DNA of 54,455 nt from Oceanicaulis sp. BBD 1991-10 (GTDB lineage: Bacteria > Pseudomonadota > Alphaproteobacteria > Caulobacterales > Maricaulaceae): positions 1 through 54,455 of the forward strand of contig LYSW01000041.1 in assembly GCA_001657295.1 (NCBI GenBank), read 5' to 3'. Both the position numbers and the translations under genes were made by a program. Shown piece by piece: positions 33,023 through 40,421 of the stretch. The stretch's first letter is position 1. Every line of letters begins with the position of its first letter. The notes below the pieces were generated by a model. The model did no database searches and had not been told where the DNA came from. It worked only from the letters and a program-made list of their open reading frames with translations.

Positions 33023-33302
33023 CACGCAGCTTTCACGTATGCGGGAGATGGCCGGCGACGCGTTTGCGGGCCGGGATCAGCCGGTCTACAACAGCGCTGC
33101 GTTCAAAAAAAGGACGGCTTTCCATTTGGAATTCCAGGTGAGCCTCCTATCTAAGCGCCGACGCACAATTCACCTTGTGCGCGTACAACGAGATCTAGAC
33201 CCGGCGCGCGCCGGGGGCCGACCCGCCCCGACCCGCTGGATCCGGAAACCGGTACTTCGCAGCGCTCTGCGCTGCGCCCGTCAACGAAAGGATCCGCGTT
33301 CC

Positions 33303-33929
33303 ATGGACGCCATGACCGATAAAAACACCCTCGCCGTCGTCTCTGACGAGGTGACCCGCCCGACCCGCGAAGAAGCCGAAGAAGCCGTGCGCACCCTGCT
33401 GCGCTGGGCCGGCGATAATCCCAACCGTGAAGGTCTGATTGAAACGCCCAAGCGTGTCGCGAAGGCCTATGAAGAATGGTTCCGCGGCTATCAAGAAGAC
33501 CCCAAGGAAATTCTCGGCAAGCGCTTTGAAGACGTTCAGGGCTATGACGACATGGTCATGCTGACCCATATCGACGTGGAGTCGCACTGCGAACACCATA
33601 TCGCGCCGATCATCGGCACGGCCTGCGTCGCGTATCTGCCGGACCGGGCCGTAGTCGGCATCTCCAAGATCGCCAAGGTCGTCGAAGCGTTCTCCAAGCG
33701 GCTGCAGACCCAGGAGACCATGACCGCCCAGATCGCCGACGCGATCGAGGAAGCGATGAACCCGCGCGGCGTGGCGATCTTCGTCGACGCCAAGCATCAG
33801 TGCATGACCACGCGCGGCGTGCATCATCCCAACGTATCGACGATCACCACGACCTTCACCGGCGAGTTCAAAGCCAATCCGGAACTGCGCCAGCGCTTCA
33901 TGAGCCTGTGCGAGCAGTCCAAACGCTAG
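33303..33929 (+). CDS. folE: GTP cyclohydrolase I
   Basis: A 208-residue enzyme converting GTP to dihydroneopterin triphosphate, the first step of tetrahydrofolate synthesis. The zinc site is visible as SHCEHHIAP (C96, H99) and QCMTTRGV (C167), with [20 protein letters not shown] and [11 protein letters not shown] conserved. The ATG at 33303 with AAAGGA upstream is chosen; the longer frame from 32925 crosses the promoter region. A strong terminator follows, and immediately beyond it lies the large SIR2-STAND gene rather than hisI, which often follows folE in the class. Confidence 0.97.
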
Positions 33930-33950
33930 GCCGAGACCGGCATGTAAATG

Positions 33951-33985
33951 AAAAGCCCGGGAGCGACGCTCCCGGGCTTTTTGGT
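33951..33985 (+). terminator. Rho-independent terminator of folE (hairpin copy 1)
   Basis: AAAAGCCCGGGAGC (33951-33964) pairs perfectly with GCTCCCGGGCTTTT (33968-33981) around loop GAC and runs into a T tract. It ends folE and could also act on the convergent large gene, whose stop codon is only about 20 bases further on. Confidence 0.93.
33955..33979. repeat. 25-bp hairpin repeat, left copy
   Basis: The 25 bases at 33955-33979 (GCCCGGGAGC stem, GAC loop, GCTCCCGGGC, TT) are identical to 39543-39567, including the loop. The two copies flank the SIR2-STAND gene on both sides, which may mark an insertion or duplication boundary (inference). Confidence 0.7.
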
Positions 33986-34004
33986 TTTCGGTTCGCAACG
34001 ATGG

Positions 34005-37000
34005 CTAGACGAGGAATTTGCTGCGATCCGCTTCGCCGAAATCGACTTTCGGGCTCTCCTGGGCCAGCAAGGCGATTCGCTGCGCCTTCTCGACAGCGAC
34101 CTGATACCCATACCGGCTCGCCATTCGGGTCGTGAATTCAAGCAGCGCGCTGCCGTGGTCGCGCCGGCCTCTGGCCAGCGTCACAGCGCTCATCAACACC
34201 ATCGCGTCAATCTGCTTGATCGTCATGCCGTGGTCCGCCGCCAGCGCGAGGGCGCGAACCGCGAATTCGCCCGACAGCTTGCTGTCGCCGGCGCTGAGCA
34301 GAATGGAGCCGTAGACGGTGCAGGCTCGCGATTCCAGACCATGCAAGCCGACCTGGCGGGCGAAGTCGAGCGCACGTTCAAGGCGCGCCATCAACTCTGA
34401 TCCCGGCGCCCCGTCAGCGAACAGCAAGCGGGACTCCAGAACCCGGCATTCGTGCTTCAAGTCAGCGTGGCGCGCCGCTTCAGACGCGGCGATGGCGCGC
34501 TCGATATGGCCGCTCGCAGCCTCAAGCCGCCCCTCTCCGATCTCGAGATTGGCCAACGCAGAAGCGAACAACGCCACGCCGCGACTTCTATTCTCGGCGC
34601 TCAACGCCTCGATTGCGGAGGCAAGCGTCCGGCGCGCGCGCTCCGATCGTGCGTTCAAGGCGTCGACCACGCCGCGATATCCCCTGGCGGACTGGTAAAT
34701 ATGAGAGGCTTCGAGCTCACCGCCGGCCGCATTTCGGCCTGACCTGGAGGCGGCGAATTCCTTAAGCCGGTCACGCTCGACCCTCTCAATGCCTTCAAGC
34801 GTGGTCCGCGCGCGCTCAAGCGCGCCAAGTTCGATTTGCGCATGGGCGATATTCAGTGCGATCCGGGCGGCCGCCGAATTGCCTCCACGCCCCTCGACCT
34901 CCCGGTTCTTCTCGCGGGCGCGGCGCAATAAGGGGAATGCATCATAGAGCCGCCCCTGCGCCAGGAAGGTCAGGCCGCGCTCGTTTAAAAGCCATATGAT
35001 TTCATCGTCGTAGAAGGGCGCTGGCGCATCCCCGGGCCGTTTCCGTCTTCTCTCCAGCCGGTCCGCCCATTCGTCCGCCTGCGTCAGCAGACGCCGCAGA
35101 CGGGTCACATGTTCGGTCAAAATGGGTTCGCGGCGCGATGAGGAGACGCCGTCCAGTTCGCCGAGGCGGGCCAACACCGCGATGGAGAAGGACGAGCGGA
35201 CAACCCCCAGCGCGGCGCGCATCATGCTCGACATGGTGTTGAGGGACGGCGCCCGGGTGCCGTCAGGCTCCGATAAGGTCTCAACCAGATTGTCGAGGAA
35301 TAAGAAGGGCTCGGCGTCAATATCCGGAATATCGCGCGGCTGCCCGACAAAGGTCGACATATCAAAGAAATGAGCTTCGCTGACCACATTGCGGGGGCTG
35401 CCCAGGCGCTTGAGCACATAGGCGCGCATGCGGCGGTGGATGACGAAGCGGTCTTCATTGCTGGCCTCGGATTCTTGGCGGCCGTGAATCTTCATGACCA
35501 GGCCGCGCCGAAGCATGCGCTGAAGGCTTTCCGTTATCAGGCTGCTGAGATGGTCCGGCTTTCTTCTCTTCGCCGCTCCTTCGCCGCCAGGGCCGTCCCA
35601 GCCCCGTTCATAAGTGTGATACAGCTCGTCAATCTTCGGGCATTTGAGCAGAACTTCTGGAGACACCGGAACGTTGAAAAACGCCAGGTGCCGCAAAATC
35701 AGATTATCCAGCGCATTCTTGGCCCGCCGCTGCGGGTGGTCGCGATCTTGTTCTTCAAACGTGTAGCAATCGACCACCCGGTCGATGATCTCATCAATCG
35801 CACGGTCAGGCTCTTTGATCGTGACGACGTGGTACAGCTCTTCATACCAGCGCCTTAAGCCTGCTGCGTCGACCTTCGTCTCCATCGACGCCGCCAGAAT
35901 CAGCGATTGCGTGAACAGACAGCAATCCGTCGCGCGATAGATGGCCTTGAGCAGATCCTGCGTCGCCATTTCGGCGGCCGGCAGATCGTTTTCACCCCGG
36001 CTGGGCTCAGTCAGCTTCCTGAAGTCTGAAGCCGCGCCCGAACCGCTTAAGCGCAAGCGCTTCTTATTCTTCGCAAACGCCTGCTTGTAGGCCGACCATA
36101 TCCCGGGCTGACCGCGTTCCGGTTCGTTCTCCACCGGTTCGACCGCGAAAGGGACGGGCTCAATGTCATGGAAATGCAGCTCCACCTTGGTGTCGGGCGT
36201 GATTATCCGTTCAAGATCAATACAGCCCTTGCGCGCCAGCAGGATCACATCGACCGGCGCATCCTCCACCTCGGTCAGAATGACCTTCAGGAAGGCGCGA
36301 ATTTCGCCGGTGAACGGCTCGAGCCGCTCATCAAACAGCATGTCGACATTGTTGATGACGATCGCGAAACGCGTGCGCCCGTCCACATCGGGGTGTTTTG
36401 CAGCCGCGGCGCATTCGCGAAGCGTTTTCCTGAGGCGGTCGATCCGGGACGGTTTGCCGTGGCGCTCGCCCTCTTCGTCATCCCTTAGCCGCACCTTTAA
36501 ACTCTCGGTGCACGCCCCAAGGAATTCGATCACCCCCTCGATGATCGACGTGTATTCGCATGCGAATGTCGTGTTCGCGAAGAAGACGCGTCCATGGCGC
36601 GGCGTGGATGGGGCGTGCTTCTTTCCAACATTCAGCCCGCGCCATTCAGGAAACAGGCGCAATTGCTCAAAGAAAATGCCTTTGCCGCCGCCCAGCGGCG
36701 CCTGGCACATGAAGGCAACCCGGCTCGCCGTCTCCGCCGGCTGCGCTGTCAGAAGCTTGCGGACCTCATGATTCCATTTGTCGTAGAAGGGGTCGAGCCG
36801 GCGCGCACGCGCCAGGTCGCTCATGAATATGCGGCCCTTGGTCGGGTCTATGCCATAGCGTGTCTCCGGCCCGATTTTCACATGGCGCAGAACATGCCGG
36901 TAGCTGTCGTGGACATCGACCGCCTTGGCCTTCTTCTCCGCCGCGCCTTTGCCAGGCCTTTGGCGCAGTGATTTGAGCTTGCCTTCGCGCGCATACAGCT

Positions 37001-39395
37001 CAGGCAGGCGGCCCTTGGGAACGCGCCGCCACTTTCCCCACCACTCCTGCCAGCAGGCGCCGATATAGGCCACTTCATGATCGAGCGAGAGCGAGATTAT
37101 CTTCTCGCGCAGCCGCTTTATGAAGTCCGACAGCAGCCTGCAGCGCAATGGCGTGAGATAGTCGCCAGCGCCATTCCCGTCCGGCTTGTCGGATCTATTC
37201 GCCTCCATGCGCAGCCTGTGGAGGATGTAGACCAAGGCCACCCGATCCACCCGCAAGCGCGTGACCCGCGGCAGGGCGATCAGCATCCAGGGCCAATATT
37301 CTTGGAGAAGCGTCGCCATCTTGCGCGGGGTCGCCTTGATGTCTTCGAACACCTTATTTAGCCGCTCGATCTCCAAGCCGCTCTTGCTGTCTCCAAGGTC
37401 GAATCCTTCGCCGACCTCGCCGAATTGAAACTCCTTTGCGAATAAGTCCTTGAGGCGGCTCCGCACGGCTTTGACGCGTTCCTTTCGATTCTCCTCCGAG
37501 AAATCGGCGGCCGTAATCGGTTCCAGCGCATCGGCGAGGGACTTCAACGCGTTGAGCTCGTGATGCAGCTCCGAGAGATCGTCCGGATCGATCGACTTGC
37601 AATCCAAGGCTTCAGAGGCTTCAGAGGCTTCATCGCGGATGCTCTGGAAGAGCGGATGATATCTCTTGTAGAGATCGCGCTCCTCTTCATCGTCGGAATG
37701 ACCTGAATAGGGGCGGCATCCATGGTGAATCGCCTGAACCCCATATCGCAGCTTGTAGCGCAGCAATTCCACATCGCGCTCGGTCCGGCCCTTGAGCGCG
37801 GGAACCAGCGCGAAGACTGGGCGATCGGCGGGCCCCTTCCTGTTGGAGACGAATTGCCGAAGCGGACGCATCAGGTCCGCCTCGGAGAGGCCGGCGCCCA
37901 TGAAGAGCACCGAATTGCCCCCGAAGATCACATCCAGGGCTTCGTTGAAGATTCGCCGGGACTCGTCATTCTTCAAATAAGTCGCCTGGTAGTCGCGCTC
38001 GGTGACGACCAGCGGATCGGCCTTTTGCGCCCGGCCGTGCAGGTGAAAAATATCCACATGAACGCCCGGCGCGCCGACGGCGAATTCGACGAGTTCTGAG
38101 GCGGCGGTCGGGTCGAACACGCTTGAGCGGGCGTATTTGCCCACGCGGCTGCGCCGCCCCATCATCAGATGCTGAGGCTCGGTCGCGCCTAGATGGCTTT
38201 GCGCGCCCGCGGCCTCGGAATCCAAATCACCATCGGGACCGTCGGTGAACGCGCCGAGCAGATAATCGTTATGCTCGAGATAGCGTTCCAGCTCGAGGTC
38301 GTAATTGGTCGTCAGAAACCGGCGCAGCTGCAATGCGGAAAACACCGTGTGGATCGGATCGATGATCGGCCGGGTGAATTCCAACAGGTTTTTGCGGTCG
38401 CTGTGCGACGGGCGCGAGAGACGTGATTCCTCTTGCTCCCGATAGGACATGGCTTTGACCAGGACCTTGGTCAGCGCCTTCTTCCCCGCCGTCTTGCTGG
38501 AGCGGCCGTCCAACGAGACGGACGCGGCGGCGAGGATCACCGCCAGGAAGCTGCGCCGGTCCGGCGGCAGCGCGTTGATCAGCGCCTCGTCCCCCGCCTT
38601 CGAAGACCGCTCGCTTCCCGTCGCCTTGAAATACAGCGACTCAAATCCCTGTTTGCCGACGACGGGCTTCCTGTTCGGCGCCTGCGTGCCTTCACACTCC
38701 GCAATCAGAGCTTCGACAAGCGACGTCTCGAGCCAGGCTCTTTTTTCTTCGCCGATGAAATTGCGCAATCCCCGCAGAAGATCCGCATTGTAAAACAGCC
38801 GGTGCGAGAAATGCTCCGGCGTCTCCGGCTCGGCCCCCGGCGTCCAAAGCGCCGTCAGATAGTCCTTCAGCGCGTCGTCATTCTTGACGGCGGAAAGACT
38901 GAGGAGATCCTTAAGCGGCGTGATGCGCTCCTCAAAATTGCGGCGCGCATAGCTGCGATCATCCAGAACCAGCCGCTTGACCAGGGACCGGACCTGCTCG
39001 CGTTCCTGCATCGGGTCAGCATCATCCAATTCCCACTCAAGCCGCTCACACAACTCGAGCACGAGCATATTGTGTTCAGCCGTATCGTTGGATGAGGTCT
39101 CGTTGGCGCCGGCGCGTTGATCATTCAGGACTTCGAGCGTCTCGAAGATCTCCTTCGCCGCTGAATGCTCGTCGAGCACGTTCTCCAGGGATTCAAAGCG
39201 TGCCCGGGTATGTTCCCAAATCTCGTCGACGAGCTCATTCCAGCTCAACCGTCCATAGGCCCCGCTGACGCCGGACCCGATGAAGCCGACCATGCGCCGA
39301 ACATTCAGCGCCCGGTATAATCCATAACGCGCGGCGCGTCTGACCGACCTTGGCGAAAGAACGGCTTCGCCGCCGTCAACTTCCAAACTTGGCAT
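34005..39395 (-). CDS. SIR2-STAND-TPR protein, candidate anti-phage NADase (Avs5/DSR-like)
   Basis: A 1796-residue single-gene protein. SIR2 part: RMVGFIGSGVSGAYGRLSWN (about 34-53, NAD-binding glycines), then a helical insertion of about 300 residues, LTTNYDLELE (361-370, putative catalytic Asn364), HLHG (451-454, putative catalytic His), PLVVTERDYQATYL and SVLFMGAGLSEADLMRPLR. Middle: a P-loop-like NTPase with PLGGGKG (900-906; Gly where Ser/Thr is usual) and Walker B-like FAIVINNVDMLF (1010-1021). C-terminus (about 1460-1780): TPR-like helical repeats, probably the sensor. Known SIR2-STAND proteins (Avs5, DSR) sense phage proteins and deplete NAD. The ATG at 39395 (AGGGG upstream) is chosen over 39443. 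No partner gene, integrase or transposase is adjacent. Family architecture is clear; anti-phage function is inferred. Confidence 0.88.
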   Translation of the reverse strand: MPSLEVDGGEAVLSPRSVRRAARYGLYRALNVRRMVGFIGSGVSGAYGRLSWNELVDEIWEHTRARFESLENVLDEHSAAKEIFETLEVLNDQRAGANETSSNDTAEHNMLVLELCERLEWELDDADPMQEREQVRSLVKRLVLDDRSYARRNFEERITPLKDLLSLSAVKNDDALKDYLTALWTPGAEPETPEHFSHRLFYNADLLRGLRNFIGEEKRAWLETSLVEALIAECEGTQAPNRKPVVGKQGFESLYFKATGSERSSKAGDEALINALPPDRRSFLAVILAAASVSLDGRSSKTAGKKALTKVLVKAMSYREQEESRLSRPSHSDRKNLLEFTRPIIDPIHTVFSALQLRRFLTTNYDLELERYLEHNDYLLGAFTDGPDGDLDSEAAGAQSHLGATEPQHLMMGRRSRVGKYARSSVFDPTAASELVEFAVGAPGVHVDIFHLHGRAQKADPLVVTERDYQATYLKNDESRRIFNEALDVIFGGNSVLFMGAGLSEADLMRPLRQFVSNRKGPADRPVFALVPALKGRTERDVELLRYKLRYGVQAIHHGCRPYSGHSDDEEERDLYKRYHPLFQSIRDEASEASEALDCKSIDPDDLSELHHELNALKSLADALEPITAADFSEENRKERVKAVRSRLKDLFAKEFQFGEVGEGFDLGDSKSGLEIERLNKVFEDIKATPRKMATLLQEYWPWMLIALPRVTRLRVDRVALVYILHRLRMEANRSDKPDGNGAGDYLTPLRCRLLSDFIKRLREKIISLSLDHEVAYIGACWQEWWGKWRRVPKGRLPELYAREGKLKSLRQRPGKGAAEKKAKAVDVHDSYRHVLRHVKIGPETRYGIDPTKGRIFMSDLARARRLDPFYDKWNHEVRKLLTAQPAETASRVAFMCQAPLGGGKGIFFEQLRLFPEWRGLNVGKKHAPSTPRHGRVFFANTTFACEYTSIIEGVIEFLGACTESLKVRLRDDEEGERHGKPSRIDRLRKTLRECAAAAKHPDVDGRTRFAIVINNVDMLFDERLEPFTGEIRAFLKVILTEVEDAPVDVILLARKGCIDLERIITPDTKVELHFHDIEPVPFAVEPVENEPERGQPGIWSAYKQAFAKNKKRLRLSGSGAASDFRKLTEPSRGENDLPAAEMATQDLLKAIYRATDCCLFTQSLILAASMETKVDAAGLRRWYEELYHVVTIKEPDRAIDEIIDRVVDCYTFEEQDRDHPQRRAKNALDNLILRHLAFFNVPVSPEVLLKCPKIDELYHTYERGWDGPGGEGAAKRRKPDHLSSLITESLQRMLRRGLVMKIHGRQESEASNEDRFVIHRRMRAYVLKRLGSPRNVVSEAHFFDMSTFVGQPRDIPDIDAEPFLFLDNLVETLSEPDGTRAPSLNTMSSMMRAALGVVRSSFSIAVLARLGELDGVSSSRREPILTEHVTRLRRLLTQADEWADRLERRRKRPGDAPAPFYDDEIIWLLNERGLTFLAQGRLYDAFPLLRRAREKNREVEGRGGNSAAARIALNIAHAQIELGALERARTTLEGIERVERDRLKEFAASRSGRNAAGGELEASHIYQSARGYRGVVDALNARSERARRTLASAIEALSAENRSRGVALFASALANLEIGEGRLEAASGHIERAIAASEAARHADLKHECRVLESRLLFADGAPGSELMARLERALDFARQVGLHGLESRACTVYGSILLSAGDSKLSGEFAVRALALAADHGMTIKQIDAMVLMSAVTLARGRRDHGSALLEFTTRMASRYGYQVAVEKAQRIALLAQESPKVDFGEADRSKFLV

Positions 39396-39542
39396 GAATT
39401 CACCCCTCAACCTTCGGGAGCATGCCAAATAAATCCGCCGCATCGCAAGATTTCATCTCGAGCGCGGCTTCGGAGGTTTCGGCGCCGCCAGTCTCAGGCC
39501 GTGACGGCCAGGTTCAAGTCACGGACGAAATCATAGATCGAG

Positions 39543-39567
39543 GCCCGGGAGCGACGCTCCCGGGCTT
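39543..39567. repeat. 25-bp hairpin repeat, right copy
   Basis: Exact second copy of the folE terminator hairpin, lying about 150 bases upstream of the SIR2-STAND start codon and 25 bases before the stop of the convergent SDR gene. It has only a weak T-rich tail on the plus strand (CTTGTTCTTCC), and no plus-strand gene lies just upstream to need it. This fits a duplicated boundary of an inserted segment. Confidence 0.7.
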
Positions 39568-39591: not shown

Positions 39592-40365
39592 TCACCGCGC
39601 CAGAAATCCGCCGTTGATGAAAAGTGTCTGGGCGGTGACCCAGGCGCTGTCGCCGGTTGCGAGGAAATCCACCAGCGGCGTGACGTCCTCCACCTCGCCC
39701 AGCCGGTTCATCGGGCTCATCCCGGCGAGATAGGCGGCGGTCTGCGCATTCTCCTCCGCATGGAAGAAGGGCGTGTCCAGCGGACCGGGCGCCACCGTGT
39801 TCACGGTGATGCCCCGCGCGCCGATCTCCTTGGCGAGCGCCCGGGTGAAGGCGTCCAGCGGGGCCTTCGAGCCGGCATAGGCCGCGTACATCCCCGTGGT
39901 GGCGCCTTGAAGCGTGGTGCCGATATTGATGATCCGGCCACCGTCCTCCAACCGGCGCGCCGCCTCCTGCATCACCAGGAAGGAAGCCTTGGTGTTGACG
40001 CCGAACAAGCGATCGAATTCGGCTTCCGTGACGTCGACGAAGGCCTTCTTCAGCACCATGCCGGCATTGTTGACGACGATATCGATCCGTCCAAAAGCCT
40101 CCCTCGCTGCTTGAAACACCGCCTGAACATTAGCGCGTAGAGCCAAGTCGCCCGAGGTGATCAGCGCCCGGGCGCCGGCCGCCTTGACGCGCGCGGCGGT
40201 CTCTTCCGCATCCTGCGCCGAATTGGCGCCGTGGTGGTGCACGACGATATCGGCGCCGCGGGCCGCCAGGCTTTCGGCGATGGCGCGGCCCAGATTGCGG
40301 GCGGAGCCGGTGATGAGGGCGACCTTGCCGTCAAGATCGCGGATCGGGGTGGTGTCTTGGGTCAT
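39592..40365 (-). CDS. SDR family NAD(P)-dependent oxidoreductase
   Basis: A 257-residue classical short-chain dehydrogenase: KVALITGSARNLGRAIAESL cofactor loop, VNNAGMVLKKAFVDVT, INIGTTLQGATTGMYAAYAG with the Tyr-x3-Lys pair, and INTVAPGPLDTPFF-like block near the end, closing with TLFINGGFLAR. It resembles FabG-type 3-oxoacyl reductases but the substrate is unknown. The start at 40365 has GGAG eight bases upstream. It is divergent from a LysR regulator that is likely to control it. Confidence 0.92.
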   Translation of the reverse strand: MTQDTTPIRDLDGKVALITGSARNLGRAIAESLAARGADIVVHHHGANSAQDAEETAARVKAAGARALITSGDLALRANVQAVFQAAREAFGRIDIVVNNAGMVLKKAFVDVTEAEFDRLFGVNTKASFLVMQEAARRLEDGGRIINIGTTLQGATTGMYAAYAGSKAPLDAFTRALAKEIGARGITVNTVAPGPLDTPFFHAEENAQTAAYLAGMSPMNRLGEVEDVTPLVDFLATGDSAWVTAQTLFINGGFLAR

Positions 40366-40421
40366 GTCAGTCTCCATTCGGTTTGAGGCCGGTCGTTGCT
40401 CCCGGCGCGACTGGAGTTTTG

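Follow-up and report, generated by a model that had tools for sequence, protein, structure and literature searches.

The locus described here raises the question of whether a single, very large bacterial protein may act as an anti-phage system on its own, and whether such a protein belongs to one of the known sirtuin-based defence systems or stands beside them. It is encoded in a window of 54,455 nucleotides (the whole stretch of DNA analysed). An earlier note had reported one open reading frame of 1796 codons at positions 34005–39395 without stating its strand. We confirmed this frame, which runs uninterrupted on the minus strand, while the plus-strand reading of the same positions contains many stops. 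A further in-frame ATG is present upstream at 39443, and the ATG at 39395 is preceded by a Shine-Dalgarno-like GAGGGG. The product is a protein of 1796 residues with the order SIR2, P-loop (STAND-like) and TPR. We consider it likely that it is a single-gene, NLR-like, NAD-depleting immune sensor, in which a STAND-type module lacking its Mg ligands serves as a binding switch or scaffold.

The SIR2 domain covers residues ~1–560 (37716–39395, minus strand) and contains N364, D366, H453, G454 and E505. Its motifs were located at G40–S44, T362–D366 and H451–G454, together with the LFMGAGLSEADL stretch, all at the residue numbers given earlier, and Pfam SIR2_2 matched residues 448–537 (E 4.8e-14; 53.1 bits vs. 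a curated cut-off of 24.5). We aligned 34 family proteins of 1199–2439 residues, that of the window included. N364, D366, H453 and G454 are kept in all 34 aligned proteins and E505 is a Glu in 33 of them; two members, L063 and L088, are truncated N-terminally, so that their N-terminal motif columns are gaps or unreliable. Judged by its residues, the SIR2 active site is intact in the aligned relatives. By its spacing, E505 of the window protein may be the counterpart of Glu202 of PaAvs5-1. Four shorter relatives (L025, L058, L087 and L089) carry a Met or Leu where GxGxS of the SIR2 domain has its second Gly, and nonetheless keep the SIR2 Asn, Asp and His-Gly. Between GSGVS and TTNYD lies an insertion of residues ~60–345 (38361–39218, minus strand), which is modelled as helical and shows pLDDT values below 50 at residues 157–344.

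The structural model of the N-terminal 620 residues is modest (pLDDT 63.7). The structure comparison that had been proposed as a check nevertheless turned out in favour of a SIR2 fold: chains of ThsA, DSR2 and KomBC occupied ranks 1–7 of the Foldseek search (probability 0.97–1.00), all matches of this model being weaker than E 0.001. We also ran a sequence profile built from 25 family SIR2 regions against solved structures. The best match was SeThsA 7uxt (5.5e-14; labelled USG protein in the database), and other ThsA chains followed at 5.4e-8 to 1.1e-5; for KomC the values were about 1e-6 to 1e-5, and for DSR2 they were 0.0015 to 0.0084. KomC is a phage-defence NADase, and ThsA and DSR2 are described as such in the literature. 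By analogy with these proteins, we infer a role of the window protein in phage defence.

The central P-loop recognised earlier proved to be in place. The P-loop NTPase-like alpha/beta domain covers residues ~890–1060 (36216–36728, minus strand) and contains a Walker-A-like loop, APLGGGKG, at residues 899–906 (36678–36701, minus strand), with Gly replacing Ser/Thr, and a Walker-B-like strand, FAIVINNVD, at residues 1010–1018 (36342–36368, minus strand), with Asn replacing the acid. Both replacements recur throughout the family: according to the alignment columns, the Ser/Thr position of Walker A is occupied by Gly in 33 of the 34 proteins and by Tyr in one, and the Walker B position is an Asn in 22 and an Asp or Glu in none, so a STAND-type GxxxxGK(S/T) loop with an acidic Walker B is found in 0/34. 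Gly902 (33/34) and Gly904 (34/34) are conserved, and position 905 holds Lys in 29 proteins and Arg in the other 5. Reading the raw sequences independently of the alignment yielded the same Gly-rich loop, the canonical Walker motif being absent at that place. Because all 34 proteins lack both usual Mg2+ ligands and keep the loop, the pattern argues for binding without ordinary hydrolysis. The module is probably a binding switch or scaffold that takes up a nucleotide or some other phosphate ligand, with no ordinary hydrolysis dependent on Mg.

An acid three positions past the lost Walker B Asp is retained in 29/34 proteins, and we liken it to the second acidic residue of a NACHT-type Walker B. 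Moreover, a Ser or Thr immediately follows GKG or GRG in 15/34; adenylate-kinase-type loops carry GKG followed by Ser/Thr and are found in active enzymes. Because of the retained acid and the occurrence of GKG loops in active enzymes, the domain may still be capable of hydrolysis. Among the 34 NTPase regions, Pfam detected AAA_22 in five, NPHP3_N in three and AAA_16 in three, and neither nSTAND3 (PF20720, tested at E 0.1) nor NACHT in any. A profile of the NTPase region run against solved structures returned repeat-protein noise and weak kinase matches. The phrases "degenerate Walker" and "pseudo-NTPase" were absent among the literature matches listed.

The C-terminal TPR array (residues ~1465–1785; 34041–35003, minus strand), likewise proposed in the earlier note, was borne out by Pfam TPR matches near residues 1466–1545, which stay under the curated cut-offs, and by the structural model. 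The model of residues 600–1796 (pLDDT 72.9, pTM 0.77) contains a strand, a Gly-rich loop and a helix at the place of the P-loop and ends in a long, regular array of helices. The best solved Foldseek match of these 1197 residues was the STAND-TPR protein 6mfv (E 2.3e-9), which aligned over 906 columns but with an rmsd of 26 and TM-scores of 0.21/0.34. At this quality of fit, STAND-type helical and winged parts behind the P-loop domain are no more than possible. Further matches were Avs3 (8dgc, E 1.5e-4) and Cdc6/Orc1 (2qby, E 4.8e-4), and many plain TPR proteins were among the best 50. The two top STAND matches of this model are thus 6mfv, which is not known to have a SIR2 domain, and Avs3, which carries a nuclease. 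In the predicted structure, this part of the protein is a P-loop fold joined to C-terminal repeats and STAND-like, the wording "STAND" being based on low-TM fold matches. This term, already used in the earlier note, is backed by the matches to 6mfv and Avs3 and weakened by the low overall TM-scores and by the Walker Ser/Thr and acid missing in 34/34. Because 33 relatives align, because ThsA, DSR2 and KomBC lead the SIR2 fold ranks and because a STAND-TPR protein is the best match of the remainder, the domain architecture goes beyond chance.

A known system for comparison is Avs5, which the earlier note had named. The common plan consists of an N-terminal SIR2 domain with TTNxD and an HG or NG motif, a central STAND-type P-loop and C-terminal repeats. 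As described, PaAvs5-1 possesses a SIR2 domain with TTNxD, an nSTAND3 domain with Walker A GPAGSGKT and Walker B Glu410, and repeats (PMC12931631). In the literature searched, the names SIR2-STAND and SIR2-TPR occur in this paper alone (PMC12931631). One may accordingly regard the window protein as a divergent Avs5, that is, as a SIR2-STAND sensor driven by ATP, in which an unusual set of P-loop residues would still allow ATP to be bound and hydrolysed. The domain order is alike, and the AVAST5 filament 9nc9 is among the SIR2 fold matches, at rank 40 with E 0.4. The same paper reports that Walker B of PaAvs5-1 has a single acid and that the E410Q variant still protects, which would suit such tolerance, but that E410A abolishes protection (PMC12931631). 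In place of the GPAGSGKT loop described there for Avs5, this family shows GxG(K/R)G; it has no acid corresponding to the Walker B Glu, and nSTAND3 is not matched. Counted from the first Gly of GxGxS, the catalytic Asn lies ~86 residues away in PaAvs5-1 and 324 in the window protein. Tested as Avs5 members, the 34 proteins yielded 0/34 for nSTAND3, 0/34 for a Walker A Ser/Thr and 0/34 for a Walker B acid, and none of the 11 family members scanned with PADLOC matched Avs5, a model of which the PADLOC library presumably includes. We regard a divergent Avs5 as unlikely.

Because nSTAND3 and both Walker features fail despite the common plan, we did not file the family as Avs5. The guess of a new branch made in the earlier note, with a long SIR2 insertion and a divergent P-loop, is supported by the spacing and the Walker columns. 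The best reading is that of a new branch beside Avs5 and outside its membership; it is set apart by the description of Avs5, as the alignment and the tree contain family sequences only.

The other known systems share the SIR2 part with the window protein. DSR1 and DSR2 are large SIR2 NADase proteins as well, and their SIR2 part matches by profile and fold; the matches are confined to this part, and the best stretch of the Dsr1 model covers 62 of the 1796 residues, in the SIR2 core, and is not full-length. DSR2 is not known to have a P-loop domain. Thoeris ThsA and KomC gave the best sequence and fold matches to the SIR2 NADase domain, but their chains are short (264–497 residues) compared to the 1796 residues of the window protein. 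ThsA is reported to be triggered via its SLOG domain, and no SLOG domain was seen in the window protein. The PADLOC check of the window protein and 11 members yielded matches in the SIR2 core and nothing beyond it, with no dedicated defence model. The best match of the window protein was LmuA (E 1.7e-8, SIR2 core); the LmuA and PDC-S25 models comprise 433 and 517–528 positions, respectively, and their best stretches cover 54 and 35–58 residues of the window protein. The literature searched contained no phage or NAD assay of the window family.

In the preferred reading as a single-gene sensor, the TPR array would bind a phage product, and the STAND-type module would relay the resulting change to the SIR2 domain at the N terminus. 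By comparison with ThsA, DSR2 and Avs5, this domain would then cleave NAD+ and halt the infected cell. In the usual view, nucleotide binding and hydrolysis set the state of STAND sensors. The family may form a new branch of the sirtuin-based defences against phages, one in which arming does without ordinary ATP hydrolysis; as the fold and the effector are kept and the Mg ligands are lost, the need for hydrolysis in arming a SIR2 NADase becomes directly testable. The family also adds a candidate branch, mostly from Alphaproteobacteria, that is unmodelled in the PADLOC copy used.

The gene is located between folE, coding for a GTP cyclohydrolase I (33300–33929, plus strand, start approximate), as convergent neighbour, and a gene for a short-chain dehydrogenase (SDR; 39592–40377, minus strand) as upstream neighbour on the same strand. 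An open reading frame downstream on the same strand (33195–33998) was considered as a partner gene and rejected because it is antisense to folE, which is coded on the opposite strand there. A perfect 23-bp hairpin is present between folE and the stop of the SIR2 gene (33955–33977), and a second copy occurs upstream of the SIR2 gene (39543–39565), separating it from the SDR gene. These are the two only sites of this hairpin in the assembled 3.2-Mb genome, allowing up to one mismatch, and they bracket the SIR2 gene. The earlier statement that no partner gene is adjacent in the window holds, with the downstream frame antisense to folE and the SDR gene set off by the hairpin.

For comparison, we used eight stretches of 6–10 kb each from congeners. 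One of them (G003) aligned on both flanks of the slot between folE and the SDR gene, and in the other seven the cysS-folE side aligned but the dehydrogenase side did not. In G003, the slot is occupied by an open reading frame of 181 residues without Pfam match in place of the SIR2 gene (L098:2298–2843, minus strand). Because G003 holds a different frame there, the content of the slot is variable. The 181-residue frame is also flanked by two similar hairpins.

The neighbours in the window to which Pfam gave a name belong to metabolism or housekeeping. PADLOC gave a single match at 1e-15 among the 46 other open reading frames of the window, mad3, and this PADLOC family also matched 3 of the 294 neighbouring frames of the relatives. 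Because of this one match among 46, the window is not a recognisable defence island. Metabolic neighbours and a nearly empty PADLOC result would suit a NAD-dependent sensor of a non-phage cue, involved for example in plasmid exclusion or stress control, and two plasmid-borne relatives would fit competition between such elements. The closest solved SIR2 relatives, ThsA, DSR2 and KomC, are all phage-defence NADases, the first two according to published work, which speaks against a non-phage cue, and we judge this explanation quite improbable.

The relatives show about 22–28% identity to the window protein, and the alignment comprises 33 further proteins in which the SIR2 catalytic residues are retained. 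From a contig scan with a six-row alignment as query came 31 loci, of which 25 bear an Alphaproteobacteria label; a contig scan with a single protein as query yielded no relative. Further loci came from searches of whole genomes and from plasmids. Aligned members outside this class are labelled Derxia, Granulosicoccaceae, Blastocatellia and Bryobacter, and two family members are plasmid-borne. An 867-residue frame without Pfam match (L009:11649–14249) follows the copy on an Azospirillum plasmid on the same strand. No member was found in 14 congeners, so that one of 15 genomes of the genus holds the gene, counting its own. A search of 99 genomes matched three, namely its own, G053 with a C-terminal piece only, and one more. 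In the order of the window's organism, 6 of 398 genomes gave a match; its own is among them, and so is G177, whose match is weak and restricted to TPR. At class level, E 0.001 was reached in 29 of 385 genomes, with strong matches in six of them, its own included; and in the phylum, 2 of 398 matched at E 1e-15, its own included. Weak single-domain matches, such as G177 and 23 of the 29 class genomes, were left out of family membership. Two scans of viral contigs and a search of phage records gave no relative. The outline drawn in the earlier note (SIR2, P-loop and TPR in a single gene) stands, and the distribution of the family is scattered.

The rare occurrence, in one of 15 genomes of the genus, may be read as that of a non-functional or decaying gene retained by chance after transfer. 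The unbroken frame of 1796 codons and the retention of the catalytic and other conserved family positions oppose decay, which we consider highly improbable.

The counts of 34 proteins exclude (near-)identical loci, as judged by BLAST score (L008, L010, L057, L071 and L086), pieces shorter than 1100 residues (L061, L062, L083 and L091) and L093, which gave no open reading frame. The 34 rows are non-independent, L069, L072 and L074 being near kin. Several hosts are metagenome bins with possibly wrong labels; L071 and L078 show equal BLAST scores and bear labels from different phyla. The tree has long branches, which make the placement of the window protein unsure. The PADLOC matches listed for the 294 neighbouring frames include, as raw counts, two Septu members (PtuA and PtuB), methyltransferases and others.

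A comparison of the neighbours at 34 loci, the window excluded, revealed one recurring gene, coding for an AAA+ protein, at six loci, and a profile then raised the count to eight distinct loci (L068, L069, L072, L074, L075, L076, L081 and L082). At six of these, the gene sits directly upstream of the SIR2 gene in the same orientation; in L068 and L081 it is on the opposite strand. The Walker motifs are intact in all six AAA+ proteins examined (L069:6328–8778, L075:6391–8484, L076:6515–8833, L082:2922–5042, L068:4761–7601 and L081:8066–9943). In some relatives, an AAA+ partner with intact Walker motifs may supply the function missing from the SIR2 protein, and the family hints at a possible two-gene version. 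The window protein itself is stand-alone, as there is no AAA+ partner for its gene: a search of ten genomes holding the SIR2 family, the window's own included, found none. In a second search, its own genome was again without match, all three known holders were matched, and two of four others matched weakly, at E 1e-4 or worse.

The AAA+ proteins end in a RyR domain in L068 and in a SLOG domain (SLOG cluster 2) in L081, and in neither in the four others scanned. Phage proteins with RyR domains are described as breaking down or sequestering cyclic ADP-ribose signals (PMC13232231). A tentative and rather doubtful extension of the preferred reading is that the STAND switch works by ligand binding alone, perhaps of a nucleotide or a NAD-derived product, and that in some lineages the ATPase role has moved to the AAA+ partner, which in the single cases ending in RyR or SLOG could read NAD-derived signals. 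The link to NAD signals rests on L068 and L081, because only these copies, both on the opposite strand, carry the two domains. The AAA+ protein of L068 is identical in L008 and L108.
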